Virus record (IMG/VR): IMGVR_UViG_3300020810_001156
Span: 1 to 64,000 of that record
Length of the DNA: 64,000 nucleotides
Source of the DNA: a virus
Direction: 5' to 3' (one strand)
A program made the translations under genes and the position numbers. The notes under the pieces were generated by a model. That model searched no databases. It was given only the letters and a program-made list of their open reading frames with translations, and had not been told where the DNA came from. This document shows, one piece after another, positions 6,290 through 49,672 of this stretch (positions are counted from its first letter, which is position 1; every line of letters begins with the position of its first letter).

Positions 6290-6309
6290 ATATATAGTTA
6301 GATTTATCA

Positions 6310-7452: not shown

Positions 7453-7924
7453 TATAATCGCAGATGATGTAATTATCGAAGATGGTGTTGAAATTGGAAA
7501 CTTCAATATCATAGGAGCTGGAACTATAATCCGAAAGGGAACTGTAGTTGGTAACTATTGTGAAATAGGTGAAAATAATGATATCGGTGAAAACTCGATT
7601 GTTCAAGGTAGAGTTAGAACTGCTAGTGGGTGTATTATAGAAAAAAATGTAACTATAAAATATGGTACAATTCTAACTTCAGATGTACTACTAAAAGAAG
7701 GATGTTTTTTAGGTCCTCATACTATTACATTGGGTTCAACACATGAAAGGATAACCAAACATGGAACTGTAATCGGTAAAAATACCTACATTGGAGCTGG
7801 TTCGAAAATAGCTGCTGATACTAAAATCGGTGATGATATTGTAGTTGGTGCTTTGGGATTTGTAAATAAAGATATAAATGAAAAGGGAATATATGTAGGA
7901 TTGCCCGTTAAAAAAATAAAATAA
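7433..7924 (+). CDS. hexapeptide-repeat (left-handed beta-helix) acyl/acetyltransferase
   Basis: 163 residues made almost entirely of [IV]-G-x-x-x-x repeats (VEIGNF, TVVGNY, DIGENS, VIGKNT, KIGDDI), ending with the GIYVGLPVKKI closing loop seen in sugar O- or N-acyltransferases. It overlaps the acyl-CoA dehydrogenase by 20 nt, implying translational coupling and a shared pathway. Substrate unknown; sugar-nucleotide N-acylation after the aminotransferase step is plausible. Confidence 0.75.
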   Translation: MKVGKYNIIADDVIIEDGVEIGNFNIIGAGTIIRKGTVVGNYCEIGENNDIGENSIVQGRVRTASGCIIEKNVTIKYGTILTSDVLLKEGCFLGPHTITLGSTHERITKHGTVIGKNTYIGAGSKIAADTKIGDDIVVGALGFVNKDINEKGIYVGLPVKKIK

Positions 7925-8745
7925 TGTTATCAATTCTTCCAAATGCTGGTTTTGGTTCTACAACCTATTATGATGGTGATGATGTAAATCACCTATCTCA
8001 CTTAAAAAATTGTAAGTTAATATGTAAAAAAAGATTCAATATTGATGAATCGGTTGAGCAAATAGTTGTAGAGGACCCTCAGCTACATTTTTACAAATTA
8101 TCAAATAAAGTATCAAATACTTACATTTTTAATGAAAATGAAGGGTATAGTAAGGGTAAAAATTGTGATATTCATAATACTGCTACAATTGGAGTGGGAG
8201 TAGAAATTGGTGATAATGTAACTATTGGACCAAATGTTGTAATTTATTCTCATACTAAAATTGGTGATAATGTAACAATAGATTCCAATTGTACAATTGG
8301 AACTGAAGGAATGATGTGGGTGTGGGATAATAATAAAAAAGTATATCTCAGACAGTTAGGTGGAGTTTTAATTGAAAATAATGTTAGGATTTGTAGTAAT
8401 TGTGTTATAGTTAGAGGTTCAGCTAATGAACTTACGATTATTAGAGAGGGTTCTAACTTAGCGCCAGGATGTTGTATTGGGCATGGAACTGAAATAGGTG
8501 AGTATGTACATTTCGCTAACAATATATCAACTGGTGGTTCAACAAAAATTGCTGGTTATAACTTTGTAGGAAGTGGTGTAGTTTTTAGAGCTGGTGTTAA
8601 CGTTACTTCAAATGATGTAATTATCGGAGCTGGTGCTGTTGTTAATAAAAACATAGATAAGAGTGGGGTTTATGTTGGTGTACCTGCTAAATGGATAAAA
8701 GAATCCAAAGGTAAATTAAATGGAATGCCAAAATGGAGAAGATAA
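7924..8745 (+). CDS. LpxD-like hexapeptide N-acyltransferase
   Basis: 273 residues. An N-terminal about 80-residue cap containing DPQLHFYKL resembles the LpxD cap domain. A long hexapeptide helix follows (ATIGVGVEIGDNVTIGPNVVI ... HTKIGDNVTIDSNCTIG), then a GVYVGVPAKWIK end. LpxD itself adds 3-hydroxyacyl chains to UDP-3-O-acylglucosamine in lipid A synthesis. This shorter version may N-acylate a related surface sugar. It shares a 1-nt overlap with the preceding acyltransferase. Confidence 0.65.
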   Translation: MLSILPNAGFGSTTYYDGDDVNHLSHLKNCKLICKKRFNIDESVEQIVVEDPQLHFYKLSNKVSNTYIFNENEGYSKGKNCDIHNTATIGVGVEIGDNVTIGPNVVIYSHTKIGDNVTIDSNCTIGTEGMMWVWDNNKKVYLRQLGGVLIENNVRICSNCVIVRGSANELTIIREGSNLAPGCCIGHGTEIGEYVHFANNISTGGSTKIAGYNFVGSGVVFRAGVNVTSNDVIIGAGAVVNKNIDKSGVYVGVPAKWIKESKGKLNGMPKWRR

Positions 8746-9284
8746 AAGTATTTCAAATTGGATTTAACAAATGTGGAACACAATCTCTTTGTGATTTTTT
8801 TCTTCAAAATGGATATAAATCCGTACATTGGGGTGAAGGAAAATGGGCTAATCATTTTAAAAAAAATCAAAGTGAAGGTAACCTACTTTGTGAAGGAGCT
8901 AATGATATTGTAATGTGGACTGATATTGGATTTATACAAAGGAACTTTCAAATATTTGCTGAACAATATCCCAATTCTAAATTCATATACAATATCAGAC
9001 CTTTAGAAAAGTGGTTAGATAGTAGAATTAGACAATATAAAAAACATCCACTTTCCTTTACAGATGGATATGGATTTACTATTGAAAATGGAATTGATAG
9101 AATTGATTATTGGAAATCCGAATGGTTTTATCACAAAAAAGTTATTGAAGAGTTTTTTGTGGGAAATATGGCTAAACGATTATTGATTTTTGATATTGAA
9201 AAAAATAATGGTGAGGATATTCAATCTTTTTTACCAGAATTAAAGTTTAGTAACTTAAAAATACCATATAGAAACAAAGGATGA
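8733..9284 (+). CDS. sulfotransferase-family protein
   Basis: 183 residues. The N-terminal FQIGFNKCGTQSLCDFF (residues 7-23) is the 5'-phosphosulfate-binding loop of PAPS-dependent sulfotransferases, and KFIYNIRPLEKWLDSR (about residues 85-100) fits the 3'-phosphate-binding strand-helix. It is expected to move sulfate from PAPS to a hydroxyl or amine, probably on a glycan given the cassette. It overlaps the previous gene by 13 nt. Confidence 0.75.
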   Translation: MEKIKVFQIGFNKCGTQSLCDFFLQNGYKSVHWGEGKWANHFKKNQSEGNLLCEGANDIVMWTDIGFIQRNFQIFAEQYPNSKFIYNIRPLEKWLDSRIRQYKKHPLSFTDGYGFTIENGIDRIDYWKSEWFYHKKVIEEFFVGNMAKRLLIFDIEKNNGEDIQSFLPELKFSNLKIPYRNKG

Positions 9285-9657: not shown

Positions 9658-10728
9658 ATGAATTACGCACTAACTTACGATGATATTCAATTAGTACCAG
9701 CTTTTTCGAATATCAAATCAAGACAAAATATCAAACTTCATACGATGTTGAGTGAAAGATATGGATTATTAAATCCTATCGTAGCTTCACCAATGGATAC
9801 AGTTTGTGAGTTTGAAATGGCTTACAAAATGGCTGAATTGGGTGGAGTTGGGTGTATTCACCGATTTATGAGTATCAAAGAACAAAGAGATATCGTAGAG
9901 AGGTTGTATGAAGCAATCTATGCCGATGAATTTGGTATTGCTGAACAATGGGGTGTAATGTACGATGATTGGCATGGTGAAATCAAAGCCGTACCTATCA
10001 TGGCTGCTATTGGAGTTCAAAATGAAGATAAGGATAGAGCTTCGGCATTGGTTGAAGCTGGTGCAAATGTTTTACTGATTGATGTGGCTCATGGAGACCA
10101 CCAAAATGTGTTAGATATGATTCATTGGTGTGTAACTCAAGATGATTTTCAAAATGTAGATATCATAGCTGGAAATATTGCAACTGCAGAGGCAGCAGAG
10201 TTACTCCAAACTTATGGAGTACATGGTTTGAGAGTTGGAATTGGTGGAGGTTCACTTTGTACAACGAGAATTAAAACTGGGTTTGGTGTTCCAAATGTAA
10301 CTTCATTAGAGGATATCGCTAGGGTATCGAATGTACCTATTATGGCTGATGGTGGTTTGAGAACTTCTGGTGATATCTCAAAAGCACTAGCAGTTGGAGC
10401 TGATTGTGTAATGTTGGGTTCACTATTAGCTGGAACTGATGAAGCGCCTGGTCAAATTGTTGAAACTCCAAACGGATTGTACAAAAGATATAGAGGTTCA
10501 GCATCATTGGAAACTAAAGTAACTCACGGACAAGCTGCGAGAAATGTTGAAGGTGAAGCAACAACAATTCCATATAAAGGTGGAGTTAAATTTATTATCA
10601 ATGGATTATTGGATGGAGTGAAATCAGCCCTAAGTTATGCTGGGGCTAGTGATTTAAAAAATTATAATCCAAAATATGTAGTAGTTACCAATGCTGGACA
10701 GAATGAAGCTAAACCGCATCTTTTATGA
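9658..10728 (+). CDS. IMP dehydrogenase / GMP reductase family enzyme
   Basis: 356 residues forming a TIM barrel without CBS domains. LTYDDIQLVP and NPIVASPMDTV open the barrel. IIAGNIATAEAA and VGIGGGSLCTTRIKTGFG place the catalytic cysteine at Cys201, and IMADGGLRTSGDISKALAVGAD is the phosphate-binding loop. The family interconverts IMP, XMP and GMP through a thioimidate on the cysteine. IMPDH is favoured slightly (KTGFGVPN, YRGSAS), but CBS-less GMP reductase is not excluded. It would adjust guanine nucleotide supply during infection, as purine genes do in other marine T4-like phages. Confidence 0.85.
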   Translation: MNYALTYDDIQLVPAFSNIKSRQNIKLHTMLSERYGLLNPIVASPMDTVCEFEMAYKMAELGGVGCIHRFMSIKEQRDIVERLYEAIYADEFGIAEQWGVMYDDWHGEIKAVPIMAAIGVQNEDKDRASALVEAGANVLLIDVAHGDHQNVLDMIHWCVTQDDFQNVDIIAGNIATAEAAELLQTYGVHGLRVGIGGGSLCTTRIKTGFGVPNVTSLEDIARVSNVPIMADGGLRTSGDISKALAVGADCVMLGSLLAGTDEAPGQIVETPNGLYKRYRGSASLETKVTHGQAARNVEGEATTIPYKGGVKFIINGLLDGVKSALSYAGASDLKNYNPKYVVVTNAGQNEAKPHLL

Positions 10729-18519: not shown

Positions 18520-18668
18520 GAGCGATAGAACAAAAGAGTAGATTAAAACACATTGCCCATAACCCATCTGGAGAATTGGTGAGAATTCTAACTCAAAGAG
18601 GACGAGCTTGGTTGAGGCTAAGAACTATCAATAGGAATCAAATAACGACGACGGAAAATTCGTTTTGA
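18516..18668 (+). CDS. small basic protein, 50 aa
   Basis: MRAIEQKSRLKHIAHNPSGE... is rich in Arg (RGRAWLRLRTINRN). ATGA overlap with the preceding stop. Function unknown. Confidence 0.5.
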   Translation: MRAIEQKSRLKHIAHNPSGELVRILTQRGRAWLRLRTINRNQITTTENSF

Positions 18669-18736
18669 CCGACACCGTAAAAAATTTTAAAAAGACTGGG
18701 GTAGAACGGGCCCCCTCAAACAACAATAAGGGTTAT

Positions 18737-19027
18737 ATGGGAAAGAAAAAGAAAATCAAAAAAGGATTAGGAAGAAAAATAGGAGAGTGGTTGGTTTTCA
18801 ATCGTAGGTTAACTGCTGCGGAACGATTAGGAAATAGAATGGGTTATATGGGTTCGGCATTTATTATGATGTCTCCATATTTACTTCCTTACGATAACTT
18901 AGGCGCTTACACATATTTAATTGGAGCCGTTCTATCTATACCACAAGTATTCCTTGCCAAACAATGGAACTTAGTGGTAATCAACTTAAATCTATTGGTA
19001 GGATATGGATTATACCTTTATCGATAA
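18737..19027 (+). CDS. membrane protein, 96 aa
   Basis: A Lys-rich N-terminus (MGKKKKIKKGLGRKIG) precedes two or three membrane helices (about residues 35-92). An IPQVFLAKQWNLVVINLNLL segment is vaguely like PQ-loop/SemiSWEET half-transporters, not enough to assign. A TTG at 18665 could extend it by 24 residues; I prefer the ATG. Confidence 0.55.
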   Translation: MGKKKKIKKGLGRKIGEWLVFNRRLTAAERLGNRMGYMGSAFIMMSPYLLPYDNLGAYTYLIGAVLSIPQVFLAKQWNLVVINLNLLVGYGLYLYR

Positions 19028-20108: not shown

Positions 20109-20130
20109 CCAAAAAATAAAGAGCATAAAA

Positions 20131-20158
20131 AAAGGGGATGATTAATTTCATCCCCTTT
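20131..20158. terminator. bidirectional intrinsic terminator
   Basis: Perfect 11-bp stem AAAGGGGATGA/TCATCCCCTTT with a TTAATT loop. A-rich on the left and T-rich on the right, so it can stop both the plus-strand operon and the minus-strand receptor gene that converge here. Confidence 0.85.
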
Positions 20159-20179
20159 CTTATTTTATAAAGGTTTCTC

Positions 20180-22900
20180 TTAGAATCTATAAGTTAAACT
20201 TGCGTTCCAAGTTCTACCAAATCCGAACCATACTGAGTTTCTAACATCAACACCATTCCATGTAGTTGAACTAGCATCTGCATGAATGTTAGAGTTAGAT
20301 TCTGCAATATAAACAGCATCGAATAAGTTGTTGATATTAGCTCTCGCAGTAAATTTACCAAACTTACCAGTCAATCCTAAATCAACTAAACCATACGATG
20401 GTAATTTCATCGCACCTAAGTTATCAGGTTGTGTAAACTCCGAATCAGTAATAGAGTAGTCAGCGTATAATCCATCTACAAATCTATAATCTACATCAAC
20501 ATTAAATCTTTTACCTAACTTCTGGTCTACTCCTAAAACAGCTACGAATTGTGCAGCATCACCAACTTTAGCATCTTTAAGGTAAAGAGTACCTGTTCCG
20601 ATTGATTGTTGGTTATCATCAAATAATTCTGCTTCGAAATCTTTAGTATATCTCCAATCACCGATTGATAACATACCTCTGAATCTCGTTGCGTTTGATA
20701 ATTGATACTTACCTTCAAATTCGATACCATTATGTACTACATCGATATCTCTGAATTGTGCAAATCCATCTACACCTTGTTGGTTAGATAAACTTCTACT
20801 AACAAATCTATTACCCCAAGTTGTTGTGTAAGCGTTAATGTTAAACGATACATCTGAACCAATAAAACCATAACCCAATTCAAATGAACGAATTTCTTCG
20901 TTTTGTAAATCTGGATTAATTTCATTAGCAAAGTTAGGGAATACTGCATCAAACTGAGGTTGTCTTGAAATTACACCTGCGTTAAAGAACACATTTGATT
21001 TCTCATCGATATTGTAGTTAGCACCACCCTTTACATATCCACCACCTTGGTTTTGAACATCTGATTCTGGGTTACCTGGTTGGTCAAAATAATCGATTCT
21101 TTGGAATGCTTGGTTAGATAAACCTGCTTGTACTACTGCAGTTAATTTATCTCCCTGATATTCTACTAAACCATTAAGACCTTGCCATCCAACTTTACCA
21201 ACATTGTAGTAATCAATCTTCGGACCGTTTAGACCTGTATTCTGAAAAGGATTTGCTTCAACTAAAGTATTGATGATTTGACCGTTAGAGTTTTTGTTAC
21301 CCGTTGAGTAATAACCATCTAATCCCATTAAATCATTAAGAACTCTATAATGATAACCAGTATAGCTTCTTAAATCAACACCAATAGATGTTTTGAATTT
21401 ACCAAATTGTCCTTCTAAGTTTGAGATACCACCAACCCAGTTGTGTGAGTTCATAGATGCTCTTCTTACCAATACTGTTCTATTTACATTAGAATCTCTG
21501 AATCCATTCGAACCAATAAGTTGTCCTTGGAATGCTGAGATATCACCTGTATATCCTTCAGTAGTTGATTGGTTAGCTGCAACGATTGCATCGAAATCGA
21601 TGAATCCATTTGCATCTCTTGAACCTCTACCATTTTCTAAGTAGTGTTCTGTAAGGTCTTTTCTGAAAGGTAAGATATCAGTTGCAGCTGCACGATAGTT
21701 GTTACCACGAGGACCTGTACCACCACCTCTACCAGCAGAACCATATAATGATGTTGCTAATTTAAGGTTATCTGAAATGTTCCAATCCCAGTTGAAAGTT
21801 GCTAATGGTTTGTTGTAGAAGTTTCTTCTTAAAGAATACTCTTCTCCATTTAGTGTACCACCATTAGAATTCCATCTCTGGTCAATTCCTTCTTCACCAA
21901 AGTTTTGGTAATCTCTAATAGATACCCAAACATCTCTTTGATGGTGCCATTGACCTGCACCTAAGAATGAAAAGTTCAATTCATGGTCTGAACCTTCCGG
22001 TGCGTAACCAACTGCAGCGAAGTAAGTCCATCCTTCACCTGAAGTGTTGTAAACATATCCGTTACCAGCCCACTTAGATAATAAGAAAGATGATGCCCAT
22101 CCTTTATCATTCTTACCTGTGTTGTAAGAAACTCCTGTTTTGGTGTATCCATCGTTACCAACCATTTGAATTACTTTACCACCTTCAGTTTTCTGTGCGG
22201 CTTTAGTAAAAATGGAAACAGTTCCCCCAACTGAAGGAACTGCCAACTTAGATGCACCTAAACCTCTTTGGATTTGGATACCTGATGCTACATCGGTTAA
22301 ACCTTGCCAGTTACTCCAATATACCCATCCGTTCTCCATATCGTTAACGGGTTGTCCGTTAATAAGGAAAGATGTATTTCTTTGGTCAAATCCTCTAAGA
22401 GAGATTCTTGAATCACCATAACCACCACCTTGTTTAGTAGCATAAACCCCTGGAGTTTTATTCATAATTTCAGGGAATTCTTGGTTACCAACCTTTAGAG
22501 AAATCTCAGCTGGTGATATCGATGATACCGCTACTGGAGTTTCTCTTACTTTTGCTACATCAATTACCCCTGATGTAACCACCACTTCAGCTAACTGATT
22601 TAATGCAGTTGGTAAATTTACAATCATATCGTTCACAGCAACAACCTCAGTTGTTTGGAAACCAATAAAAGAAATTACTAAAGTGTTACCAGCGGATGCC
22701 CCAGAAATAGAAAAGAGACCATCAAAATCGGTTGTTGTACCATTTTGGGTCCCTTTGATTACTACCGTTGCGCCTGGTAGGGGTTCATTCGTTTCTGCAT
22801 CTACCACTGTTCCAGTGATTTGTGCGAAACCGGTCATTGAGGTGAAAACCATCAATAACCCAATCAAAAATTGCTTCATAATTGCTTGATTTTTGTTCAT
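20180..22900 (-). CDS. TonB-dependent outer-membrane receptor (SusC/CirA-like)
   Basis: 906 residues, complete. Signal peptide about residues 1-26 (an alternative start at Met8). A carboxypeptidase-D-like beta-sandwich follows (ITGTVVDAETNEPLPGATVVI), then a TonB-box/plug region (EVVVTSGVIDVAKVRETPVAVSSIS ... ISLRGFDQRNTSFLINGQPV ... GGTVSIFTKAA). A long 22-strand-type barrel ends in the canonical C-terminal Phe (SLTYRF). Bacteroidota use such proteins for TonB-driven uptake. It is the only minus-strand gene. It has its own phage-type promoter (23004-23035) and shared terminator, so it behaves as an inserted single-gene unit. Confidence 0.92.
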   Translation of the reverse strand: MNKNQAIMKQFLIGLLMVFTSMTGFAQITGTVVDAETNEPLPGATVVIKGTQNGTTTDFDGLFSISGASAGNTLVISFIGFQTTEVVAVNDMIVNLPTALNQLAEVVVTSGVIDVAKVRETPVAVSSISPAEISLKVGNQEFPEIMNKTPGVYATKQGGGYGDSRISLRGFDQRNTSFLINGQPVNDMENGWVYWSNWQGLTDVASGIQIQRGLGASKLAVPSVGGTVSIFTKAAQKTEGGKVIQMVGNDGYTKTGVSYNTGKNDKGWASSFLLSKWAGNGYVYNTSGEGWTYFAAVGYAPEGSDHELNFSFLGAGQWHHQRDVWVSIRDYQNFGEEGIDQRWNSNGGTLNGEEYSLRRNFYNKPLATFNWDWNISDNLKLATSLYGSAGRGGGTGPRGNNYRAAATDILPFRKDLTEHYLENGRGSRDANGFIDFDAIVAANQSTTEGYTGDISAFQGQLIGSNGFRDSNVNRTVLVRRASMNSHNWVGGISNLEGQFGKFKTSIGVDLRSYTGYHYRVLNDLMGLDGYYSTGNKNSNGQIINTLVEANPFQNTGLNGPKIDYYNVGKVGWQGLNGLVEYQGDKLTAVVQAGLSNQAFQRIDYFDQPGNPESDVQNQGGGYVKGGANYNIDEKSNVFFNAGVISRQPQFDAVFPNFANEINPDLQNEEIRSFELGYGFIGSDVSFNINAYTTTWGNRFVSRSLSNQQGVDGFAQFRDIDVVHNGIEFEGKYQLSNATRFRGMLSIGDWRYTKDFEAELFDDNQQSIGTGTLYLKDAKVGDAAQFVAVLGVDQKLGKRFNVDVDYRFVDGLYADYSITDSEFTQPDNLGAMKLPSYGLVDLGLTGKFGKFTARANINNLFDAVYIAESNSNIHADASSTTWNGVDVRNSVWFGFGRTWNASLTYRF

Positions 22901-23003: not shown

Positions 23004-23035
23004 CTAAGATACGAATAAATTTCTTAATATCCAAA
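23004..23035 (-). promoter_or_regulatory. Bacteroidota-type promoter P11 (minus strand)
   Basis: Read on the minus strand: TTTG (23035-23032), 20-nt spacer ending TTCG, TATCTTAG (23011-23004), then TATC. Same construction as the plus-strand phage promoters; it transcribes the TonB-dependent receptor with a leader of about 100 nt. Confidence 0.7.
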
Positions 23036-23075: not shown

Positions 23076-23107
23076 TTTGTATATGTCAATTTTTTTTCGT
23101 ATATTAG
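23076..23107 (+). promoter_or_regulatory. Bacteroidota-type promoter P12
   Basis: TTTG 23076-23079, 20-nt spacer, TATATTAG 23100-23107; divergent from P11. Confidence 0.75.
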
Positions 23108-23149: not shown

Positions 23150-24529
23150 ATGTTAACATTACGAAATAATCAAATAGAACCTGTTAGAAAGGGTATTGAA
23201 TATTTTTCTGAAAATAAACCCGTTCCATCAATTATCGTAGCACCTACTGCTTTCGGTAAATCAATTGTTATTGCTCATATAGCAAAAGGTGTGGGAGAGA
23301 AGGTACTTGTTATTCAACCATCAAAAGAATTATTAGAACAAAACTATGAGAAGTTTACTAACTTAGGTGGTGAAGCAACTATCTATTCCGCTTCAATGGG
23401 TGAAAAAGAGATTGGTGATGTAACATATGCTACTATTGGTTCTATTGTTAATATAGCATATAAATTCAAAGAGTATGGAATATCTAAAGTAATCATCGAT
23501 GAGTGCGATAGGTTTCCCAGAGAACCAAATGGAATGTTAAGAAGATTCTTAAAGGGAGCTGGTATCATCCATACTTTAGGTCTAACTGCTACCCCTCTCA
23601 AACTTCAAACCAATATGGGTGAAGATGGTAAACCTTTCTCTAAGTTGGTTATGTTAACTAATCGTTCTAAGAAAGGTAACTTCTTTAAAAAGATTATTCA
23701 TGTTGCCCAAATTCAACAAATGGTTGAATCAAAGTTTTGGAGTAGATTAGAATATCAATCCTATGATTTCAATACTGGTGATTTGGTTTACAATACAACT
23801 GGTGCTGAGTATTCTAATTCATCTATAAAAAGAGCATATAAGAATCAAAAGATATCTTCTAAGATTGTAAAGAAGGTTGAAGAACTATACAATAGAAAAT
23901 CAATCTTAATAGCAGTTCCTTCAATCGATGAGGCTAAAGAATTAACTACAATGATTCCAAGTTGTAAAGCAGTTTACTCTGATATGCCAACTTCGGAAAG
24001 AAAAGAGATTATTGAAGATTTCAAAGCTGGTAGGTTAAGATGCATCGCTCAAGTTAATATCTTATCAGTTGGATTTGATTATCCAGAATTAGATTGTATC
24101 ATAACTGGTAGACCTACTGCTTCTTTGAGTTGGTGGTATCAATTTGTTGGTAGAGTTACTCGTATCCATCCAAACAAATCAGAAGGATTGGTTGTAGATT
24201 TCGTAGGAGCAGTTCCAAAGTTTGGAAAGGTTGAAGATATCTACTTCAAAGAAGATAAGGGAAGGTGGAGTATGTATGGTGAAGGAAAGAAACTACTAAC
24301 AGGTATCCCTATAAAAGAGATTGGTTTGCATATAGAAGGTGAACCATCACCATATGAAAAAGCCGCTGCATCACCATCAGTTAAGATGCCGTTTGGTAAA
24401 TATGCTGGTAGAGAGGTTAGAGAGATTCCTGCTCATTATAGAGAGTGGATGTTGACCAATTTTAATTGGACTCCATTTAACCAAAAGATTAAGGATGAAA
24501 TTCTAAGACTAAAATCTATTGGTATTTAA
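23150..24529 (+). CDS. uvsW: superfamily 2 helicase, UvsW-like
   Basis: 459 residues. Walker A is APTAFGKS (Lys37), motif II DECD at 117-120, motif III TATP at 146-149 and motif VI QFVGRVTRIHP in the second RecA domain (about residue 335). The length and motifs fit the SSL2/UvsW group. In T4, UvsW unwinds R-loops and branched intermediates, helping switch from origin- to recombination-driven replication. This is consistent with a T4-type replication mode. It has its own promoter pair. Confidence 0.8.
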   Translation: MLTLRNNQIEPVRKGIEYFSENKPVPSIIVAPTAFGKSIVIAHIAKGVGEKVLVIQPSKELLEQNYEKFTNLGGEATIYSASMGEKEIGDVTYATIGSIVNIAYKFKEYGISKVIIDECDRFPREPNGMLRRFLKGAGIIHTLGLTATPLKLQTNMGEDGKPFSKLVMLTNRSKKGNFFKKIIHVAQIQQMVESKFWSRLEYQSYDFNTGDLVYNTTGAEYSNSSIKRAYKNQKISSKIVKKVEELYNRKSILIAVPSIDEAKELTTMIPSCKAVYSDMPTSERKEIIEDFKAGRLRCIAQVNILSVGFDYPELDCIITGRPTASLSWWYQFVGRVTRIHPNKSEGLVVDFVGAVPKFGKVEDIYFKEDKGRWSMYGEGKKLLTGIPIKEIGLHIEGEPSPYEKAAASPSVKMPFGKYAGREVREIPAHYREWMLTNFNWTPFNQKIKDEILRLKSIGI

Positions 24530-24695: not shown

Positions 24696-25175
24696 ATGTA
24701 TGCGTTAAGATTTTTAGGAATTGTTTTATTCTTAATATTGGGTGTATCAAGTATATCCGCACAAGAAATAAAGGTAGGAGATGTTACAAACGAAATCCGA
24801 TTAGGACCTTTCGCTGGTAATGCAAATCTTGCTATGGGAGTTCGTAATATTACCGAAGAACTTCTTATGGATTTGGATTACGATTTATCCCCATACGCAG
24901 AAACACAAATTAATATAAGACTTGTATTCTTTGATGTAAAGAATATTGGTAAGAGTATTGGTGTATATCATAATAAGGTATCAGCAACTCAAATCATTGC
25001 AATAGGAGAATTACAAGTTGGTAAGAAAGTAAAGAAACGAGTTACTAAAAAAGGAGTGAGTAAAGAAATATCTAACTCCACTTTGGTGGTAGCATCAGAT
25101 GGTTCGTTTAATCAACAAACGGCATCAAGTGCTGTAAAAAAGGTTTTAGTAGAAATAATTAAAGATTTATTATGA
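24696..25175 (+). CDS. small exported protein at head of CsgG-like cluster
   Basis: 159 residues. Signal peptide MYALRFLGIVLFLILGVSSISAQ with cleavage after Ala-Gln-like residues typical of Bacteroidota. The mature part is an alpha/beta domain of about 135 residues (VRNITEELLMDLDY ... NIRLVFFDVKN ... QIIAIGELQVGKKVKK). Its position recalls an accessory factor such as CsgE, but I cannot show sequence homology. It overlaps the next gene by 4 nt. Confidence 0.6.
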   Translation: MYALRFLGIVLFLILGVSSISAQEIKVGDVTNEIRLGPFAGNANLAMGVRNITEELLMDLDYDLSPYAETQINIRLVFFDVKNIGKSIGVYHNKVSATQIIAIGELQVGKKVKKRVTKKGVSKEISNSTLVVASDGSFNQQTASSAVKKVLVEIIKDLL

Positions 25176-26848
25176 AAAAAATTTTAACATTATTAGTTAG
25201 TGTATTGTGTACACTAAGTGTCTTTGGACAATCTCGTATGGATTATTCGAGAGTAAATACAGTAACCCAAGTAGGGGATACTTTAATTGTAAAATATCAA
25301 TACTTTAAAGGAACTGATGTTAATGGTAATGATATGCCAGATGCGACACTTTATCAGTTTGATATACAACATAACAATAAGTTATTGGATGTTATTGAAA
25401 ATGATTGGCAACCAACATCTAACTCTTCACAAAAAGCAGTAAACACTTGGAATGGATATAAGTTTACTATTGATTCTGAAAAAGACCAAACTGATTTTGA
25501 TGGGCAATATCTAAGTTGGTTAAGTGGAGATGCTACCTATGGAACAAATGCTGATTGGTCAGTACAAAGGGTAACTTATCAAGATGTAACTTCATTGGAA
25601 AATGGTGATGAGATTATGAAGGTATCTTATAAGATTAAAGATAAGGCAAATTCAAACTATACTGATTATACTAATTTAATCAATGTGAATTGGGCAAACT
25701 ATAAAGAAGCAGATGGTACTCAGATTGATGTAACTGGTCAATCTAATATAGGGTTAACAGGTATTCAAGGTGGTGATGCTGGTAATGTTTCTATTTCAGT
25801 ATCATCGAATGTAATCACAAATAATATTGGTGATGGTGGTGATTTCTCTTATACAATTTATAACAAAGGTGAAAATACTAATCCAATAGCAAGTGGTAAC
25901 TTTGATGCTGCTGGTGATGCAACTGTAACTGGTTTGGAAAATGATGTTGAGTATGATTTATATGTTTCAATTGATTCATCTAAAGAGTATTTAGATAATG
26001 TAGTAACTGTATCTGATTTATCATTGGTGTTTGCAGAAGCAATAGGAGCAGGCGATTCTCCAAATGGTATTTCAACTACATTTGATTATTACATTCAAAG
26101 TATTTTAGCGAATGTTGTAGGTACTTCTATTCCAAATGGTGGTGATATAAACTTTGATGATTCGTATGAGATACTTGCTTATCTACAAGGTGTAACATCT
26201 ACCAATACAACATTCATTTCAAAAACAGGTGAAGTGTATAATGTAAGTGGTATCAAATCTACTTTTGGTGATGAAGTAAATGGTATAGCAACCGTTTCAC
26301 CAACATTCAAACCAACTGATAGTGATAAATCGTTCCAATTTGCTCATGCAATTTCTGGTGATGTAAACTTCTCACATGGATTTGAACCAACATCAACTAA
26401 TGCGGATATACCAACCTCAGCACAATCAACTACTACTCAAAGAAGTATGATGGCAAGGGGTGCAAAACTTAATCCTGAAACTGCTAATTTAGATTTAACA
26501 TCTGAATTAAAAGATGGTCAAGTAATCTTCACAATAGGTTCGGAGGTTGAGGAAATGATTGGTGCTCAGTTTAACATTGTTTACGATAGAACGAGATTAG
26601 TATTAGATGATGTAATATTTGATACTGGTAATACAATGACCAACTTCTCAAATCACATTGAAGAAAATGGAAAAATAAATATAGGTTCTTTTGACCAAAA
26701 CTTTGAGGCAACTGTTAAGACAGGTACTCCTTATAAGTTAATCTTTACACCAACCGTACAGTTACAAAACACATCAGGTTTAATTACTTTCAAAGTTAAT
26801 GAAGGTGTTAAAGCAGATGGTACACAAATTAAATTTATAATGGAGTAA
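25172..26848 (+). CDS. secreted cohesin-like adhesin, 558 aa
   Basis: Signal peptide MKKILTLLVSVLCTLSVFGQ. The mature protein is acidic and rich in Asn/Asp/Thr, beta-sandwich-like throughout. The C-terminal about 110 residues (AQFNIVYDRTRLVLDDVIF ... GKINIGSFDQN ... LITFKVNEG) follow the cohesin-type fold pattern. A preceding dockerin-like stretch (GGDINFDDSYEILAYLQGV) may bind calcium. It shares its C-terminal half, including SGDVNFSHG.. versus IGDVNLSHS.. and the AQSTTTQRSMMARG-like linker, with the protein at 30890, so the two are paralogues. Likely exported to the cell surface. Confidence 0.65.
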   Translation: MKKILTLLVSVLCTLSVFGQSRMDYSRVNTVTQVGDTLIVKYQYFKGTDVNGNDMPDATLYQFDIQHNNKLLDVIENDWQPTSNSSQKAVNTWNGYKFTIDSEKDQTDFDGQYLSWLSGDATYGTNADWSVQRVTYQDVTSLENGDEIMKVSYKIKDKANSNYTDYTNLINVNWANYKEADGTQIDVTGQSNIGLTGIQGGDAGNVSISVSSNVITNNIGDGGDFSYTIYNKGENTNPIASGNFDAAGDATVTGLENDVEYDLYVSIDSSKEYLDNVVTVSDLSLVFAEAIGAGDSPNGISTTFDYYIQSILANVVGTSIPNGGDINFDDSYEILAYLQGVTSTNTTFISKTGEVYNVSGIKSTFGDEVNGIATVSPTFKPTDSDKSFQFAHAISGDVNFSHGFEPTSTNADIPTSAQSTTTQRSMMARGAKLNPETANLDLTSELKDGQVIFTIGSEVEEMIGAQFNIVYDRTRLVLDDVIFDTGNTMTNFSNHIEENGKINIGSFDQNFEATVKTGTPYKLIFTPTVQLQNTSGLITFKVNEGVKADGTQIKFIME

Positions 26849-26850
26849 AT

Positions 26851-27228
26851 ATGAAAAAAGTATTAGTATTATTATCTTTGGTTTTATTAATGGGATGTGT
26901 TAAGGATGAAATCCTTTCTCCTATTGATAATACAGTAGAGGTTCCTGAATCATTGGTTATTGGTGATTTACAAGGTATTAAAGTAGAATCAACAATCGTA
27001 ACCGATGAAGTTAAGATGAATATCAAACTTCCTTATACGGGAACTTATAGAGTTAAAATTAGAGATATAGGAAAAGAACTTATATCTCAAGAAAAGTTAC
27101 AAGCAAACGAAGGAGATAATATTCTTAAAGTATATGTTTCTTCTTTATCAAACGATGGTTATACTTTAGAGTTGACCGATGATAATCACGATATCATAGG
27201 TATAACTTCAATCGTAGTAAACAACTAA
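26851..27228 (+). CDS. lipoprotein, 125 aa
   Basis: MKKVLVLLSLVLLMGCVKDE has a clear lipobox (LMGC, Cys16). The mature domain is beta-rich (VESTIVTDEVKMNIKLPYTG ... YRVKIRDIGKELIS). It follows the cohesin-like gene by 2 nt. The same order, adhesin then lipoprotein, recurs at 30890-33258, so each lipoprotein may chaperone or anchor the adhesin before it. Confidence 0.7.
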   Translation: MKKVLVLLSLVLLMGCVKDEILSPIDNTVEVPESLVIGDLQGIKVESTIVTDEVKMNIKLPYTGTYRVKIRDIGKELISQEKLQANEGDNILKVYVSSLSNDGYTLELTDDNHDIIGITSIVVNN

Positions 27229-27238
27229 ATATAAAATT

Positions 27239-27541
27239 ATGAGTGAAGAAAAAGAAGTAGGGTTCTTCGGACAATTGAAAAATCAAATCATAACTGGTGC
27301 AGGGGTTATCCTAACTGGTTTGGGTACAATGTTTATGGATGAAGTAAAAACATTCATTGGTATTGGAGATGAAGAAGAAACCAAAACAGAACAAGTTCAA
27401 GTTGAACAAAAGCAAGAGGTCAATGTAAGTGGACCTGAAATCATTATCAATATTCCTGAACAAAAAACAGAAACTAAAACAATTATTAAAGAAGTTCCTG
27501 TTAAAGAAAAGAAGGAAAAAGAAGAAGAAATAGATTGGTAA
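27239..27541 (+). CDS. membrane-associated charged protein, 100 aa
   Basis: A hydrophobic segment (QIITGAGVILTGLGTMFM, about residues 16-33) is followed by a Glu/Lys/Val-rich tail (KTETKTIIKEVPVKEKKEK). The tail resembles an extended periplasm-spanning rod. Role unknown. Confidence 0.55.
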   Translation: MSEEKEVGFFGQLKNQIITGAGVILTGLGTMFMDEVKTFIGIGDEEETKTEQVQVEQKQEVNVSGPEIIINIPEQKTETKTIIKEVPVKEKKEKEEEIDW

Positions 27542-27570
27542 TAAGTTATATATTGTTAATATTAAATTAA

Positions 27571-27807
27571 ATGATTATGTTAAAATTCTTTAGAAATTTT
27601 TGGGAACTAAACACTATGCCGATGGTGGATATGTGGAATGATGCCGAAACTGTTAATGAAAAAATAGTAGCAGTATTTTTTAGCATTTGGATTGCTATAT
27701 TGTTGGTATTGTTTTATGTAGGAATGACGGGATTATTATACGGATTAATATCAGGAGAAGCAGATGTAGCAAATGCAACATTTGGTATCTTTGATTATTG
27801 TTGTTAA
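27571..27807 (+). CDS. single-pass membrane protein, 78 aa
   Basis: One long hydrophobic stretch (IVAVFFSIWIAILLVLFYVGMTGLLYGLI, about residues 32-60). A second ATG at 27577 is an alternative start. Belongs to the exported-protein cluster by position. Confidence 0.6.
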   Translation: MIMLKFFRNFWELNTMPMVDMWNDAETVNEKIVAVFFSIWIAILLVLFYVGMTGLLYGLISGEADVANATFGIFDYCC

Positions 27808-27809
27808 TT

Positions 27810-27911
27810 ATGAAAAAAATAATTGATATATTGAGTAAGATTGATAGTTGGGTATATAATCAACTATTAAATTTATACCCTAATCTTACAAAACATATGA
27901 GGGAAAAATAA
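27810..27911 (+). CDS. small peptide, 33 aa
   Basis: MKKIIDILSKIDSWVYNQLL... is amphipathic. It lies 2 nt after the previous stop and its stop overlaps the next ATG by 1 nt, supporting that it is translated. Function unknown. Confidence 0.45.
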   Translation: MKKIIDILSKIDSWVYNQLLNLYPNLTKHMREK

Positions 27912-28009
27912 TGGGATTATTAGATGTGTTTATAATAACATCTGCAATCGTTATAGGTATGTCCGTTGTAATCGGACAATTAATGAAAATATTTGATAAG
28001 GAAGAATAA
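27911..28009 (+). CDS. single-pass membrane peptide, 32 aa
   Basis: MGLLDVFIITSAIVIGMSVV... is one transmembrane helix with a short charged end. It is linked by 1-nt overlaps to both neighbours, including the CsgG-like gene. Confidence 0.5.
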   Translation: MGLLDVFIITSAIVIGMSVVIGQLMKIFDKEE

Positions 28010-28725
28010 TGAAAAAATTATTACTATTGTTGGTATGTGTATTTTTAACACAAACCACATTTGCGCAAGTTGGAAGTATTAAAGCAGAAGAATATGTTGC
28101 TGAATTCGAAAAGAAAAAATCAATTGATGATGTTTCGGATTATGATGGTGATATGTTGCCTGTTGCACTACTCGATGTAGGTATCTCAGATGCTCTCTAC
28201 GAAACTTATCCTGAATTAAGGGATGGTAGAGTGGGTTTAGGACTTACAAACATTGTAATCGAATATTTGGATTGGACAAATAGATTTGAATTTGTTGAAG
28301 AAAAATCTGCAATCAAAGATAGAATGAAATCACAATGGGTTGCTTCTCGTAAAGGTGTATCTGAAAATAAAGTTTATGGTATGGGTAAGATTACTCTTGC
28401 TGAATACTTTGTAACTATTGAGATATACGATTTCTCAGTATCGGAAGATGAAGTACTTTCACTTAAAGAAGGTTCTAAACAAACTCAAACAACTCGTTTA
28501 GGATTACAAGTAAGATTTACCGATGCTGAAACTGGTAGATACTTGGTAGGTTCTGGTTTAGGAGATGCTAAGACTGTTAAAACTCAAGAAGGTTTAATTG
28601 GTTTAGATGTAGATGAAATCGCATTTAGAGAATCAGGTATCGGAGTTGCAACTCGTAAAGCATTAGAAACAGCTTCAGCAAGAATTGTGGCAAGAATGAT
28701 ACGAAAAGGAATCTTCCCAAACTAA
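28009..28725 (+). CDS. CsgG-like curli-type secretion pore protein
   Basis: 238 residues with signal peptide MKKLLLLLVCVFLTQTTFAQ (no lipobox Cys, unlike classical CsgG). GLGLTNIVIEYLDWTNRFEFVEEKSAI matches the CsgG early core (..l...g.F.vvER). Then come GMGKITLAEYFVTIEIYDFSV, LGLQVRFTDAETGRYLVGSGLGDA (the D..TGe strand) and a helix-rich end with TRKALETASARIVARM. CsgG forms a nonameric outer-membrane channel that exports curli subunits. Here it would serve the secreted proteins coded around it. Confidence 0.65.
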   Translation: MKKLLLLLVCVFLTQTTFAQVGSIKAEEYVAEFEKKKSIDDVSDYDGDMLPVALLDVGISDALYETYPELRDGRVGLGLTNIVIEYLDWTNRFEFVEEKSAIKDRMKSQWVASRKGVSENKVYGMGKITLAEYFVTIEIYDFSVSEDEVLSLKEGSKQTQTTRLGLQVRFTDAETGRYLVGSGLGDAKTVKTQEGLIGLDVDEIAFRESGIGVATRKALETASARIVARMIRKGIFPN

Positions 28726-28728
28726 TGG

Positions 28729-30339
28729 ATGAAAAAACTACTATCGATACTATTTTTTATATTCGTAACACAAGTTAGTTACGGACAGACATTTACACAA
28801 ACCTTTGTAGATAGATGTACTGGTGAAGTACAAGTAGTAACTGCCAACTTTCAAACGGGTTCGGCAGTTGTTTCATTTTATAATAAAGTTAGAGTATTTA
28901 CATATCAAGAATATGTAAACGGAGAATTACACCAATGGTTGATGACTACTTATGCTTGGTGGCAAGCACTCTCCCCATGTTCAGCTGCACAAACTCAAAC
29001 TACCAACGCACAAAACGCAGCGAATAACGCCACAAATAACACTACAAACACAACCAATACAAATACCTCATCAACTAGCAACACATCTTCATCAAGTAGT
29101 AGTTCATCATCAAGTTCGTCTGGAGGGGATTCTGGTAGTTCATCTTCAAGTTCGTCAGGTGGTTCAGACGGTGGTGGTGATGGAAGTAGTTCATCAGGTG
29201 GTTCAGAAGGTAGTGGAGAAGGTAGTGGAGAAGGTAGTGGAGAAGGTTCTGGCGAAGGAAGTGGAGAAGGTAGTGGAGAAGGTAGTGGAGAAGGTGAAGG
29301 TTCTGGTGAAGGTTCCGGTGAAGGTGAAGGTGAAGGAGAAGGTAGTGGAGAGGGTGAAGGTGAAGGAGAAGGTTCTGGTGAAGGAGAAGGAGAAGGTTCT
29401 GGTGAAGGTGAAGGAGAAGGTGAAGAAGAGTCATCTGAAGAAAGTTCAGAGGAAGAATCAAGTGAAGAGGAATCATCAGAAGAATCGGAAGAAGAAAGTT
29501 CAGAAGAAGAATCCGAAGAAGAGAGTGAGGAGGAATCAGAAGAAGAAGAGAGTGAAGAAGAATCTGAGGAAGATGAGGAAGAATCTGATGAGGATGATGA
29601 AGAAGAATCCGAAGAAAGTGATGGTGAAGATGAAGAAGATGAGGAAGATGAAAAGGAAAAAAAGTTTATGCCTATTCAATTAAAGGCGGATATGATGGCT
29701 CAACAAGCTCTTACTTTGGATTATAATGCGGTTCTTAATATCGGTGCTTCTATGAGTTCTATTTTTGGTGATAGAAGTTATGGTGCTAATCTTATGATAT
29801 ATGATAATCTTAAACAAGCAAACATTTCACTTAACACATCAGGTGTTACTATGAATGATAATTACGAAGTAACATGGGTAGATGGTGTTTCGGTTTCTTA
29901 TATGAGAAACTATAAGATGAATGCTATATCAGCATCAGCAAGTAGAATGAAACCATTAGGTAAGTGGGGAACTGTTGGTGTGGGTATTAACTATTCTTAT
30001 ATGACGGGTAAAGACCAATTAGGGCAACAACTTCCTAAGTCTTGGATGTTAGGATATAATGTTGTTTATTCTAATATGATAAAAATAACTGATAGAATAA
30101 TGTATTCACCAGCATTGGTTGGAGTTAGTTCTCCATTATCATATACACAAATGCAAGAAACTGATATTGTAGATTTTTCTACAATCAATAAAGATTTAAT
30201 GGTTATAGTAGCAAACCCATTCACAATACAATTAACTAATAGATTTTCGTTCAATGTAGGGTGGACAGTTATAATGAGTACGAGTGAATATCTACCGATA
30301 TTAAACTCGTTTATGATAGGTTCTAAAATACCATTTTAA
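28729..30339 (+). CDS. outer-membrane barrel-like protein with Ser/Gly/Glu low-complexity linker
   Basis: 536 residues. Signal peptide [20 protein letters not shown], then a small N-terminal domain with two Cys (about residues 21-85). A spacer of Asn/Thr, then Ser/Gly, then GSGEGSGEG and finally [10 protein letters not shown] repeats (about residues 90-310, very acidic) follows. The last about 220 residues alternate like a beta-barrel ([11 protein letters not shown] ... [12 protein letters not shown] ... [14 protein letters not shown]) and end in Phe. The repeat length probably varies between strains. Follows CsgG-like gene by 3 nt. Confidence 0.65.
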
Positions 30340-30341
30340 TT

Positions 30342-30890
30342 ATGAATAAAAAAATAGAAATTTCTGTATGGTTACTTTGTTTATTAGTAATCGGATTTTG
30401 GTTTATTGGATATACTACACAATACCAAAGACCAGCTAAAATAGAATATGTAGAAGTAGTAAAAGAAGTAGAAGTAGTTGTTACTGATACAATCTATGTA
30501 GATAAAATCATAGAAGAAAAAATATATGTACCAAAATACATTACACAAATCGAAAGAGATACAATTAAAGTAGAAGTACCAGTAGAAGTAATTGTTGAAA
30601 AACAAATACCAATTACTAAAAAAGTATATGTGGATAAAGTAGTAGATAGACTTGTTGAAGTTCCCGTCAACGAGAAAAAACTATTTTTAGGGTTTGGTTA
30701 TCAATACGATTTTGAAAATTATTTTAGTGGAGCAAATATAAAGTTAATTCACAAAACACCTAAAGATAAAATGTTTAGTTTAGATGTTGGTTTCAGAAAT
30801 GATTTGTTAGATAAAGAAACTAATGTAGGAAGATTAAGACCTTACATTGGAGGTTCTATATATTTTAGAATTGATAATCCAAACAAATAG
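30342..30890 (+). CDS. membrane-anchored rod plus beta domain, 182 aa
   Basis: One N-terminal membrane helix (about residues 8-24) is followed by about 80 residues of repeating VEVVKEVEV / VDKIIEEKIYVPKY / VEVPVEVIVEK units that should form an extended rod. The C-terminal 65 residues look like an outer-membrane strand set (LFLGFGYQYDFENYF ... YIGGSIYFRID). It could bridge inner and outer membranes, as spanins do, or belong to the export complex. Confidence 0.55.
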   Translation: MNKKIEISVWLLCLLVIGFWFIGYTTQYQRPAKIEYVEVVKEVEVVVTDTIYVDKIIEEKIYVPKYITQIERDTIKVEVPVEVIVEKQIPITKKVYVDKVVDRLVEVPVNEKKLFLGFGYQYDFENYFSGANIKLIHKTPKDKMFSLDVGFRNDLLDKETNVGRLRPYIGGSIYFRIDNPNK

Positions 30891-32920
30891 TGAAAAAACT
30901 TCTTTACATATTATTATTTTTACCCACTTTAGTTTTTGGACAAAGTGGTGAAGGATATGTAAATTACAAATCCTATAAAACTCACTATGGGAATGGTTAT
31001 AGTTCAACCTATAATGGATACACATATAGTGGATTAGCTGATAACGCAACCGAGTTACAAGCAATGTTAGATGTAAATCACCCTGGTACATCTTTAACAC
31101 ATGAAGGTGAAGCAGTAGCTAATTCAAGTGAAGGATTAAAAGGAGGTAGACCTTCCAGATGGGGGAATGATTTTTATGCCGTTTATCACTATGGTTGGTT
31201 TCAACCACAAGAAACAGGAACTTACAGATTTACCCTACAATCAGATGATGGTAGTGGTTTATGGATAGATGGAGACTTAAAACTATTTAGACCTTGTTGT
31301 GGTGCATCCTCTGTGGATGTTTCCTTAACATCAGGACAATGGTACTTCTTTGAAACAAAATGGCAAGAATATACAGGTGGTGATTATATGTACTTTATGT
31401 ACTCACCTCCAAGTAATGCTAATGTGTTTTATGTTGGTGACCAAACACAGTATCTTAAAGTAACTAATATAGAACCAGAAGAAGAACCAATAAGTCCTGA
31501 AGTAGATTTAGATTTAGAATTCCATTCTCAATTAGCACCAGAAGAATATAGATTCAGAGTTTACTATGATGGAACTTCTGCACAAGATGGAACTGAATGG
31601 TTGAATACATCTACAATGAACTCTTCTTATTATTTAGATGATGATGGTAGTAAGGATATTACTGATTATCTAAATTTAGTCAAAATGGCAGATGGTAAGA
31701 AGGCAACTACAACTGGTGGTTGGACGGAGTGGTGTGTGGTTTATGATTATGATACAACTAACAAACGATACAGGGTTGGTATTGATAAAAGAGAATTTCC
31801 AAGTGGATTTACTTTTACTGATTTGAAACAATTAAAGTTGTTTGATTTATGGGATGGTGAAATAACTTATATGTCAGATGATATCTATTGGGCAAATTAT
31901 TACATCTATACTGATACTCAATTTGATTTCACAAGTTCAACCTTTTCATCTTATATAAGAGATGCAAATGGATTCTATGGAATAAAAGCAGATTTCTCAT
32001 TTGAAGATGTTGAAATATACAAAGGACATAAAGTATCATTTATGAATCCATCTACCAATATAGAAGGATGGACAGCAGAAGAATTTATGGATGATTATAT
32101 TACAGTTGCAGATGTAGTTGCAGGATTTAACGAATTAGCTGGTGGTGGAATTAATGGTGGATTAAAAGGAGATTTGAATGGAGTCCAATTACAAAACTCA
32201 GATGTTAACCAAGATGGTGAATTTGATTTTCAAGATAGTCAAATAGGATTATCTTTTTTGACTGGTGGTGATACTCCGTTTGATGGAAGTTTATATGATA
32301 TAATGAGAATAGTTCCTAAATCAGAATATGATAATACTACAACTACTAATTGGAAAACACAAACAAATAAATCACCATCAACATCGTTTACGTTTAGTCT
32401 TATAGATACGATACAAACTTTAGAGTATAAGGTTTCTTTTATAGGTGATGTAAACCTTTCACATTCTGCTCCCCAAACAGGTACTTCACCCGCTACCCAA
32501 TCTACTATATCTTCAAGAATGATGAGTGTAAGAAATTCATCTACTCAAAACAATACTTCGTTAGAGGTTGATTTAGATATTGAAAAAACTGAAGAACATA
32601 TAATCATTACATTAGATTTGCCTGAGAATAATTTTAATCTAATTGGTTCTGAATTTAGAATTGGGTTTGATAATGAACGAGTAGAATATGATAAGTTAGA
32701 AACTAATACAATGATGAATAGCTTTGATGCTAAGAGGAGTTCTTATGTTAAGGTGGGTTCTATATCAACTGATGGTTCTCTAACCTTAAACAGCGGCGTT
32801 CAATATAAAATTTATTTTAAACCAATACAATCATTTGAATCAACATTAGGATTGGTATCGGTTAAGAAATCAGAAGTTGTTGATGTAAATGCTAATATAA
32901 TAAATGTAATTATAAAATGA
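30890..32920 (+). CDS. secreted PA14 / dockerin / cohesin-like adhesin, 676 aa
   Basis: GTG start overlapping the previous stop. Signal peptide KKLLYILLFLPTLVFGQ. An N-terminal PA14 domain (about residues 50-180) shows GWFQPQETGTYRFTLQSDDGSGLWIDG, a carbohydrate-binding fold of adhesins and toxins. The middle holds a dockerin-like calcium segment (DVNQDGEFDFQDSQIGLSFL). The C-terminal cohesin-like domain (GSEFRIGFDNERVEYDKLE ... VGSISTDGSLTLN) is shared with 25172. Probably displayed on or released from the infected cell, or attached to virions; the signal peptide favours export. Confidence 0.7.
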   Translation: MKKLLYILLFLPTLVFGQSGEGYVNYKSYKTHYGNGYSSTYNGYTYSGLADNATELQAMLDVNHPGTSLTHEGEAVANSSEGLKGGRPSRWGNDFYAVYHYGWFQPQETGTYRFTLQSDDGSGLWIDGDLKLFRPCCGASSVDVSLTSGQWYFFETKWQEYTGGDYMYFMYSPPSNANVFYVGDQTQYLKVTNIEPEEEPISPEVDLDLEFHSQLAPEEYRFRVYYDGTSAQDGTEWLNTSTMNSSYYLDDDGSKDITDYLNLVKMADGKKATTTGGWTEWCVVYDYDTTNKRYRVGIDKREFPSGFTFTDLKQLKLFDLWDGEITYMSDDIYWANYYIYTDTQFDFTSSTFSSYIRDANGFYGIKADFSFEDVEIYKGHKVSFMNPSTNIEGWTAEEFMDDYITVADVVAGFNELAGGGINGGLKGDLNGVQLQNSDVNQDGEFDFQDSQIGLSFLTGGDTPFDGSLYDIMRIVPKSEYDNTTTTNWKTQTNKSPSTSFTFSLIDTIQTLEYKVSFIGDVNLSHSAPQTGTSPATQSTISSRMMSVRNSSTQNNTSLEVDLDIEKTEEHIIITLDLPENNFNLIGSEFRIGFDNERVEYDKLETNTMMNSFDAKRSSYVKVGSISTDGSLTLNSGVQYKIYFKPIQSFESTLGLVSVKKSEVVDVNANIINVIIK

Positions 32921-33258
32921 GAAAGATATTATTATTTATATTATTAATTTTGGTATCTTGTCAACCTGATGAGTTAATGGTTGTTGAACCATATCCACAA
33001 TACGAAATGATATTTGAGGAATCAATATCTAAAGTGGTTGATGGACAAGAGTTCTCATTTGAGGTATCAACAACTGAAGAATATACGTTGATTATATCAC
33101 ACCAAAATAGTTCAGTAATATCAAAAGAATCATTCATGCCAACAATGGGATTGAATACTAAAATCCTTTATACAAAATCTTTACCTAAAGGAGAATTAAA
33201 CTTAATATTAATTTTATCTAAAGAAGAAATCCAAAAAACTACTATTATTATAGAATAA
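32917..33258 (+). CDS. lipoprotein, 113 aa
   Basis: MRKILLFILLILVSCQPDEL has a lipobox (LVSC, Cys15). The mature part is a small beta domain (EFSFEVSTTEEYTLIISHQN). It overlaps the PA14 gene by 4 nt and mirrors the lipoprotein at 26851 in size and position. Confidence 0.7.
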   Translation: MRKILLFILLILVSCQPDELMVVEPYPQYEMIFEESISKVVDGQEFSFEVSTTEEYTLIISHQNSSVISKESFMPTMGLNTKILYTKSLPKGELNLILILSKEEIQKTTIIIE

Positions 33259-49229: not shown

Positions 49230-49672
49230 ACACAATGATTAACTCAATCTTGTTAGTGGATGATGAGGACTTATTCCACTTGGTATTTGAAGATGCTTGT
49301 AGTATCTTAGATATCACTCTATCTTTAGAGGCACTAAATTCATCTGATGAAGCAGATGAAAAATTCAAAGAATGGTTTCCAGAAAACCCAGCAGATGAAA
49401 GACCCGAATGTGTATTCGTTGATTTGAATATTATCGGTTCTTCATATGATGGTATTGAACTTATTCGTAAAATCAATTTTGAATATGGTAACGGATGTGT
49501 AATTGGTATTATCTCATCTTCAGATGATAATCAAGAAATTGAAAAAGCAAAATCAGCAGGTGCACAATTTTGGATTATTAAATCCGATGATATTGAACCT
49601 CGATTAGAAGAATTCAGAAAAGATTATGAAGGATATCTAAACCGAACCGCTCCATTCAAAATTTATAAATAA
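49226..49672 (+). CDS. single-domain response regulator
   Basis: 148 residues. Acidic pair Asp12-Asp13, phosphoacceptor Asp66 (CVFVDLNI), Ser97/98 (IGIISSSDD) and Lys119 (FWIIKSDD) are all in place. No DNA-binding domain follows, so output is probably by protein contact, as with CheY. It overlaps the kinase gene in ATGA. An ATG at 49235 is an alternative start. Confidence 0.85.
   Translation: MNTMINSILLVDDEDLFHLVFEDACSILDITLSLEALNSSDEADEKFKEWFPENPADERPECVFVDLNIIGSSYDGIELIRKINFEYGNGCVIGIISSSDDNQEIEKAKSAGAQFWIIKSDDIEPRLEEFRKDYEGYLNRTAPFKIYK

Follow-up and report, generated by a model that had tools for sequence, protein, structure and literature searches.

A TonB-dependent receptor gene in a large T4-like phage of Bacteroidota and its candidate role in nucleic-acid uptake

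A large T4-like phage of Bacteroidota carries a gene for an intact TonB-dependent receptor (TBDR1; 20180–22900, minus strand). We propose that its lineage acquired the gene from Bacteroidota as a working importer and that the likeliest job of the receptor is the uptake of nucleic-acid breakdown products, a proposal we regard as evenly poised between right and wrong.

The window analysed here spans positions 1 to 64,000 of a viral record of 252,603 bases (252.6 kb), and positions are those of the window unless the record is named. PHROG profiles recognise terminase, portal, major head protein, sheath, baseplate, DNA polymerase, UvsX, RNR, thymidylate synthase, and GroEL in the whole record, which identifies it as a T4-like large phage. 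The record contains two TBDR genes, TBDR1 and TBDR2 (record 233072–235048; L011:12672–14648). TBDR2 encodes 658 residues, lacks the CarbopepD domain, and differs from TBDR1.

Several other features of the record are worth describing. Three giant ORFs of more than 3500 residues each (record 110811–121598, 126219–139991, and 142082–153682) probably encode virion or tail proteins. An apparent phage two-component system, assigned by eye, lies at 47997–49672 and is composed of a PAS-type sensor histidine kinase and, after it, a response regulator. A cluster at 4729–9284, assigned mostly by eye, includes an acyl-CoA dehydrogenase similar to acryloyl-CoA reductase, a DegT-like aminotransferase fragment, acyltransferases, and a sulfotransferase-like gene, and resembles a surface-sugar synthesis set.

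Architecture and regulation of TBDR1

TBDR1 is encoded by an uninterrupted ORF of 906 residues. Met8 (22879) is the likelier start, because relatives start at residue 7 or 8. The features of the protein are all encoded on the minus strand. The signal peptide MKQFLIGLLMVFTSMTGFA (22823–22879), with a cleavage site predicted by eye, precedes a CarboxypepD_reg-like N-terminal domain (residues 28–108; 22577–22819), the aligned region of which is absent from 22 of 85 phage relatives. The TonB box LAEVVVTSG (residues 103–111; 22568–22594), assigned by eye, is kept in phage copies. It is followed by the plug (residues 118–222; 22235–22549), with a mean column identity of 94% across phage copies over residues 117–235, and by the β-barrel (residues 236–906; 20183–22195), whose terminal Phe906 is invariant among phage copies. 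A reading of the sequence alone had described a complete receptor with all domains, and each element is indeed present in the ORF.

Pfam assigns CarbopepD_reg_2 to residues 28–108 (6e-21), Plug to residues 118–222 (2e-12), and the TonB barrel to residues 382–859 (1e-14); the plug (PF07715) and the barrel (PF00593) each exceed the curated cut-off. The plug and the barrel are also visible in an AlphaFold model built with 54 relatives (mean pLDDT 81), which matches FhuA, PqqU, and OprC with TM scores of 0.72–0.80, depending on the target. The phage family phrog_5687, which has no assigned function, matches both TBDRs of the present phage and is TBDR-like.

The label "SusC/CirA-like", given to TBDR1 by the sequence-only reading, is loose. 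TBDR1 scores 96.1 bits against SusC/RagA (TIGR04056), for which the curated cut-off is 368 bits, and no SusD family is found among the eight flanking genes scanned. The best of the CirA/BtuB equivalogs in NCBIfam is of the B12-receptor type, with 41 bits against a cut-off of 600, and no CirA match is listed for TBDR1. Profiles of the TonB_C and ExbD families find no match in the record, which speaks against a phage-encoded TonB or ExbD, so host TonB and ExbD would be required.

The predicted promoter of TBDR1, TTTG-N20-TATCTTAG (23004–23035, minus strand), is of the same design as that of the divergent helicase gene, TTTG-N20-TATATTAG (23076–23107, plus strand). The window contains seven copies of the motif TTTG-N19–21-TATNTTAG, with an expectation of 0.5, and the −33/−7 positions of the TBDR1 promoter are conserved in two diverged relatives (L257 and L251), in agreement with the earlier claim that the receptor has a promoter of phage design. 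The general promoter pattern of Bacteroidota is likewise −33/−7, and the TBDR1 promoter fits it. Therefore, the promoter alone is no proof of phage-specific control. An extended motif, TTTGGnnTTCTCA...TTTCGTATATTNG, precedes many phage genes on the plus strand (1426, 2207, 9361, 13126, 15786, 17010, 23076, 34615, 43990, and 46596) and possibly defines a phage-specific promoter class.

At the other end of the gene, a hairpin with T-rich tails on both strands (20128–20161; folding z-scores of −2.9 and −3.5) is predicted to serve as a terminator either way. It is common to TBDR1 and the upstream plus-strand genes, as had been claimed.

Gene partners and the candidate substrate

A scan of IMG/VR identifies 423 stretches that encode relatives of TBDR1. 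Among the best 80 of the 423, which we examined, nearly all are 67–81% identical to TBDR1 and one is 100% identical. In most of these 80 loci, the receptor lies amid phage replication or nucleotide genes on the same strand. Because clustering of nucleotide genes is usual in T4-like phages, this position may only reflect timing.

In many relatives, a more specific set of genes lies downstream of the receptor: a hydrophobic protein of ~80 residues, a secreted S1/P1 nuclease, and a kinase of 180 residues. When loci are anchored on the kinase (n = 57, restricted to those with at least 3 kb upstream), a TBDR is found upstream on the same strand in 53, and the S1/P1 nuclease is also present in 24 of these TBDR-bearing loci. 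Clustered at 90% identity, the kinases of these loci form 19 groups, and 18 of them include a TBDR. The surroundings vary among these loci (a clamp loader with GMP reductase/IMPDH, RNR, a place ahead of the secreted-protein operon, or nucleotide-sugar epimerases), indicating that the linkage of kinase and receptor is not merely one inherited arrangement. Anchoring on the S1/P1 nuclease gives a TBDR upstream in 12 of 14 newly fetched loci, and anchoring on the nonspecific nuclease gives only four distant loci, without receptors.

Upstream of the receptor, the nearest recognised gene encodes GMP reductase/IMPDH in 17 of 70 phage loci, RNR/thioredoxin in 10, and a nonspecific nuclease in 7. Taken together, nucleotide genes and nucleases account for the nearest recognised gene on that side in 34 of 70 loci, or about half. 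A homologue of the first of these, a GMP reductase/IMP dehydrogenase-like enzyme, is encoded in the window at 9658–10728 (plus strand).

The best profile match of the cassette kinase is phage thymidylate kinase (phrog_2107, 6.5e-11), and its best folds are NadR (top), deoxyadenosine kinase, and thymidylate kinase, which score about equally. The enzyme is thymidylate-kinase-like by profile, and its fold is shared by nucleoside and nucleotide kinases, NadR among them. The S1/P1 nuclease of the relatives matches PF02265 with an E-value of ~1e-60 and has a signal peptide. It contains the motifs W-G-x3-G-H, WHYVN, VH-x2-GD, and NLHxxWD, which we take to be the zinc site. The phage protein therefore shares both profile and zinc-site motifs with the S1/P1 family; here the family member is a phage gene, usually flanked by a TBDR and a nucleotide kinase, and has no PHROG match. 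One phage S1/P1 gene (L186:5932–6759) has no receptor nearby, and its region shares genes with window 18.6–19.4 kb, near the place of TBDR1 in the present phage.

The ~80-residue membrane protein has no solid family and is not assigned as PnuC-like; one variant matches Imp-YgjV at 1.6e-6. A small hydrophobic membrane protein encoded in the window (18665–19027, plus strand) is a distant relative (~35%) of the ~81-residue protein encoded after the receptor in relatives, and is possibly part of the cassette.

In the present phage, the cassette locus lies at record 231–239 kb and consists of a nonspecific nuclease (PF01223, lipoprotein-like), TBDR2, and the kinase (record 237287–237841); the S1/P1 nuclease (PF02265) is not found in the record. 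Because this locus carries TBDR2, TBDR1 has an adjoining kinase only in relatives. The lack of S1/P1 and the distance of ~210 kb between TBDR1 and the kinase and nuclease count against nucleic-acid import by TBDR1. In two close relatives (L248 and L249), the cassette receptor is TBDR2, with the S1/P1 nuclease present, suggesting that a TBDR2-type receptor can substitute for a TBDR1-type receptor in the cassette.

The host loci give mixed support. In two Candidatus Arcticimaribacter MAGs, an S1/P1 nuclease follows a receptor of the TBDR1 type, and a NupC nucleoside transporter adjoins in one of them. In most hosts, the orphan receptors are chromosomal and adjoin pgi (11), recJ (6), or recA (3) and not nucleases, and such a receptor is missing beside 38 of the 40 host S1/P1 loci; both observations count against nucleic-acid import. 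No linked kinase was found beside the host receptors, whereas the phage copies are linked to it. The cassette kinase was not detected in 201 related bacterial genomes in a search run without a positive control; a host operon is therefore an unlikely template for the receptor–kinase pairing. With receptor and S1/P1 nuclease together only in Arcticimaribacter and the kinase not found in hosts, we reject a host operon as the source of the linkage. Since Arcticimaribacter speaks for nucleic acid and the other host neighbours are unrelated to it, we give the assignment of nucleic-acid breakdown products as the substrate class an even chance.

We favour the import of nucleic-acid breakdown products because of the profile and fold of the kinase, the S1/P1 motifs, and the nucleotide and nuclease genes upstream of the receptor. 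TBDR1 would be expressed from its phage-type promoter during infection, inserted in the host outer membrane, and energised by host TonB–ExbB–ExbD. Nucleic acid would be digested outside the cell or in the periplasm, the cassette partners including a secreted nonspecific nuclease and the S1/P1 nuclease. Oligonucleotides, nucleotides, or nucleosides may then cross the outer membrane inward through the receptor, be trimmed, and be taken across the inner membrane. Re-phosphorylation of the products would feed phage nucleotide metabolism and the DNA polymerase. More broadly, large Bacteroidota phages may repeatedly capture one TBDR subfamily and combine the receptor with an S1/P1 nuclease, a small membrane protein, and a nucleotide kinase in a cassette through which the infected host actively scavenges nucleic acid from outside the cell; we offer this generalisation tentatively and hold it to be somewhat doubtful.

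TBDR1 could instead import another scarce nutrient, such as a glycan, iron or a siderophore, or a vitamin (nicotinamide riboside, in line with a NadR-like ribosylnicotinamide kinase). The TBDRs of Bacteroidota mostly handle glycan, iron or siderophore, and vitamin substrates, as is also described for marine TBDTs (PMC3400609). The top fold match of the kinase is NadR, and its similarity to the ribosylnicotinamide kinase part counts against nucleic acid, as does the scarcity of nuclease genes near host copies. The receptor of a megaphage has been interpreted as serving carbohydrate uptake (PMC9723777). However, the score far under the SusC cut-off and the lack of a SusD family in the eight flanking genes scanned speak against another nutrient, the recurrent partners are nucleases and nucleotide enzymes, and thymidylate kinase is the best profile of the kinase. 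We consider a nutrient of another kind rather unlikely.

Nutrient uptake was one of three functions offered by the sequence-only reading, and the nuclease and kinase partners favour it. The others, replacement of the host receptor to exclude rivals and receptivity to related phage, would have the phage flood the surface with its own variant of the receptor; they fare less well, since they do not predict these partners. TBDRs are common docking sites of phages, and the Llp protein of phage T5 blocks the TBDR FhuA in a solved complex (8a60) that is among the fold matches of TBDR1. Yet the TonB box and the plug, needless for a passive decoy, are strongly conserved, and the long predicted loops show no particular variability (identity 0.65–0.89). 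Replacement or masking of the host receptor is accordingly improbable.

Origin, selection, and contiguity

In a tree of 90 representative sequences, phage and host copies are intermixed, with at least 12 phage–host switches, all forced by well supported branches, although the tree is from FastTree only and misbinning of phage DNA may account for a few of the short "host" contigs. With the same caution, the tree rules out one capture followed by vertical descent in phages. TBDR1 of the present phage groups with other phage copies. The phage copies nest within an orphan TBDR subfamily of Flavobacteriia, Balneolaceae, and Cytophagia (for example, Polaribacter, Roseivirga, and Robiginitalea), the members of which are at most 75–76% identical and have the same domains. 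TBDR1 is in this sense an auxiliary metabolic gene, a host-derived transport gene nested among host copies and lying inside a genuine phage genome, and as such would boost host metabolism during infection.

Among relatives of the present phage, the receptor is rare. It is found in 2 of 60 polymerase-anchored loci and 4 of 31 helicase-anchored loci, and as one weak match among 15 long relatives, in contrast to 53 of the 57 kinase-anchored loci, which supports the linkage to the kinase. Its absence from most relatives rules out a core gene of the phage clade. This rarity and the repeated host–phage switches would also fit a transient host-derived passenger with no role for the phage. Against this, dN/dS is 0.08–0.26 among phage copies, which points to purifying selection on the receptor subfamily in phages. 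In addition, the locus and the promoter are conserved in diverged relatives, one subfamily has been captured repeatedly, and the receptor is linked to a phage kinase. A passenger is therefore very improbable.

TBDR1 was described earlier as the only minus-strand gene of the phage. It is the sole long one in the window, but the whole record has one further, a gene of 131 residues at record 75394–75789 (minus strand). The protein encoded by this second gene has relatives at 46–48% identity on TBDR-carrying contigs (L158–L162). The inverted receptor is a trait of a small clade; most relatives have it on the strand of the phage genes.

Downstream of the divergent promoter lie a DEAD/ResIII helicase gene (23150–24529, plus strand), a marker of the conserved inverted receptor locus, and an operon of secreted proteins and lipoproteins (24696–33258, plus strand). 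The operon occurs near the receptor in two contexts, in the present locus and after the kinase in three other contigs (L155, L167, and L171). Its members include a PA14/GLEYA-containing protein, an acidic Ser-Gly-Glu repeat protein, and a protein of 238 residues that is CsgG-like by eye only; most members have no family match.

The inverted receptor, the helicase, and the operon recur together in L257 (86% identity in the receptor), L251 (71%), and L252 (60%, partial). Furthermore, an independent 107-kb contig from another metagenome (L094/L250) is 100% identical through the receptor and both flanks. This contig confirms, without reads, the contiguity for which read mapping had been suggested, and together with the three diverged relatives it upholds the earlier view that the arrangement reflects phage integration and not an assembly artefact. 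An assembly chimera of phage and host DNA, which might be suspected from the host-like character, opposite strand, and differing GC skew of the gene, is ruled out by the identical independent contig, by the same junction in three diverged relatives, and by receptors in line with phage genes on dozens of phage contigs.

Comparison with known systems

Phage genes that rewire intracellular host metabolism are already known. Here, phages appear to add an outer-membrane gate, coupled to DNA-precursor enzymes, at a usual docking place of phages. If this is true, infected cells would take up dissolved nucleic acid for building the virus genome, with TonB driving the import of oligonucleotides or nucleotides, and a widespread, uncharacterised host receptor subfamily would gain its first candidate substrate.

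A TBDR in a phage is not in itself as remarkable as the sequence-only reading had held, because the marine megaphages Mar_Mega_1 and LR745206 have been reported to encode a SusC-like TBDR, taken to serve carbohydrate uptake (PMC9723777). These receptors are likewise phage-borne, in marine phages with large genomes, and read as importers, under a SusC annotation; the portion of the report consulted mentions neither a nuclease nor a kinase cassette (PMC9723777). LR745206 matches TBDR1 at 31% identity over 22% of the query. In a viral-protein structure library with a single clear TBDR, the nearest structure is A0A8D9FQQ5, a protein named SusC from an uncultured marine phage, which is only 13% identical to TBDR1.

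DNA uptake by the flavobacterium Riemerella anatipestifer is affected by two outer-membrane proteins, a SusC/RagA TBDR and one of the carboxypeptidase-regulatory type (PMC8459023). The likeness, drawn from their description, is to this uptake, which there serves natural transformation, not feeding. What stands of the novelty claim is the recurrence of the subfamily in phages and the nuclease–kinase cassette, for which we found no description in the open-access literature. Phage auxiliary genes and phage TBDRs are already known, and the new part is the cassette.
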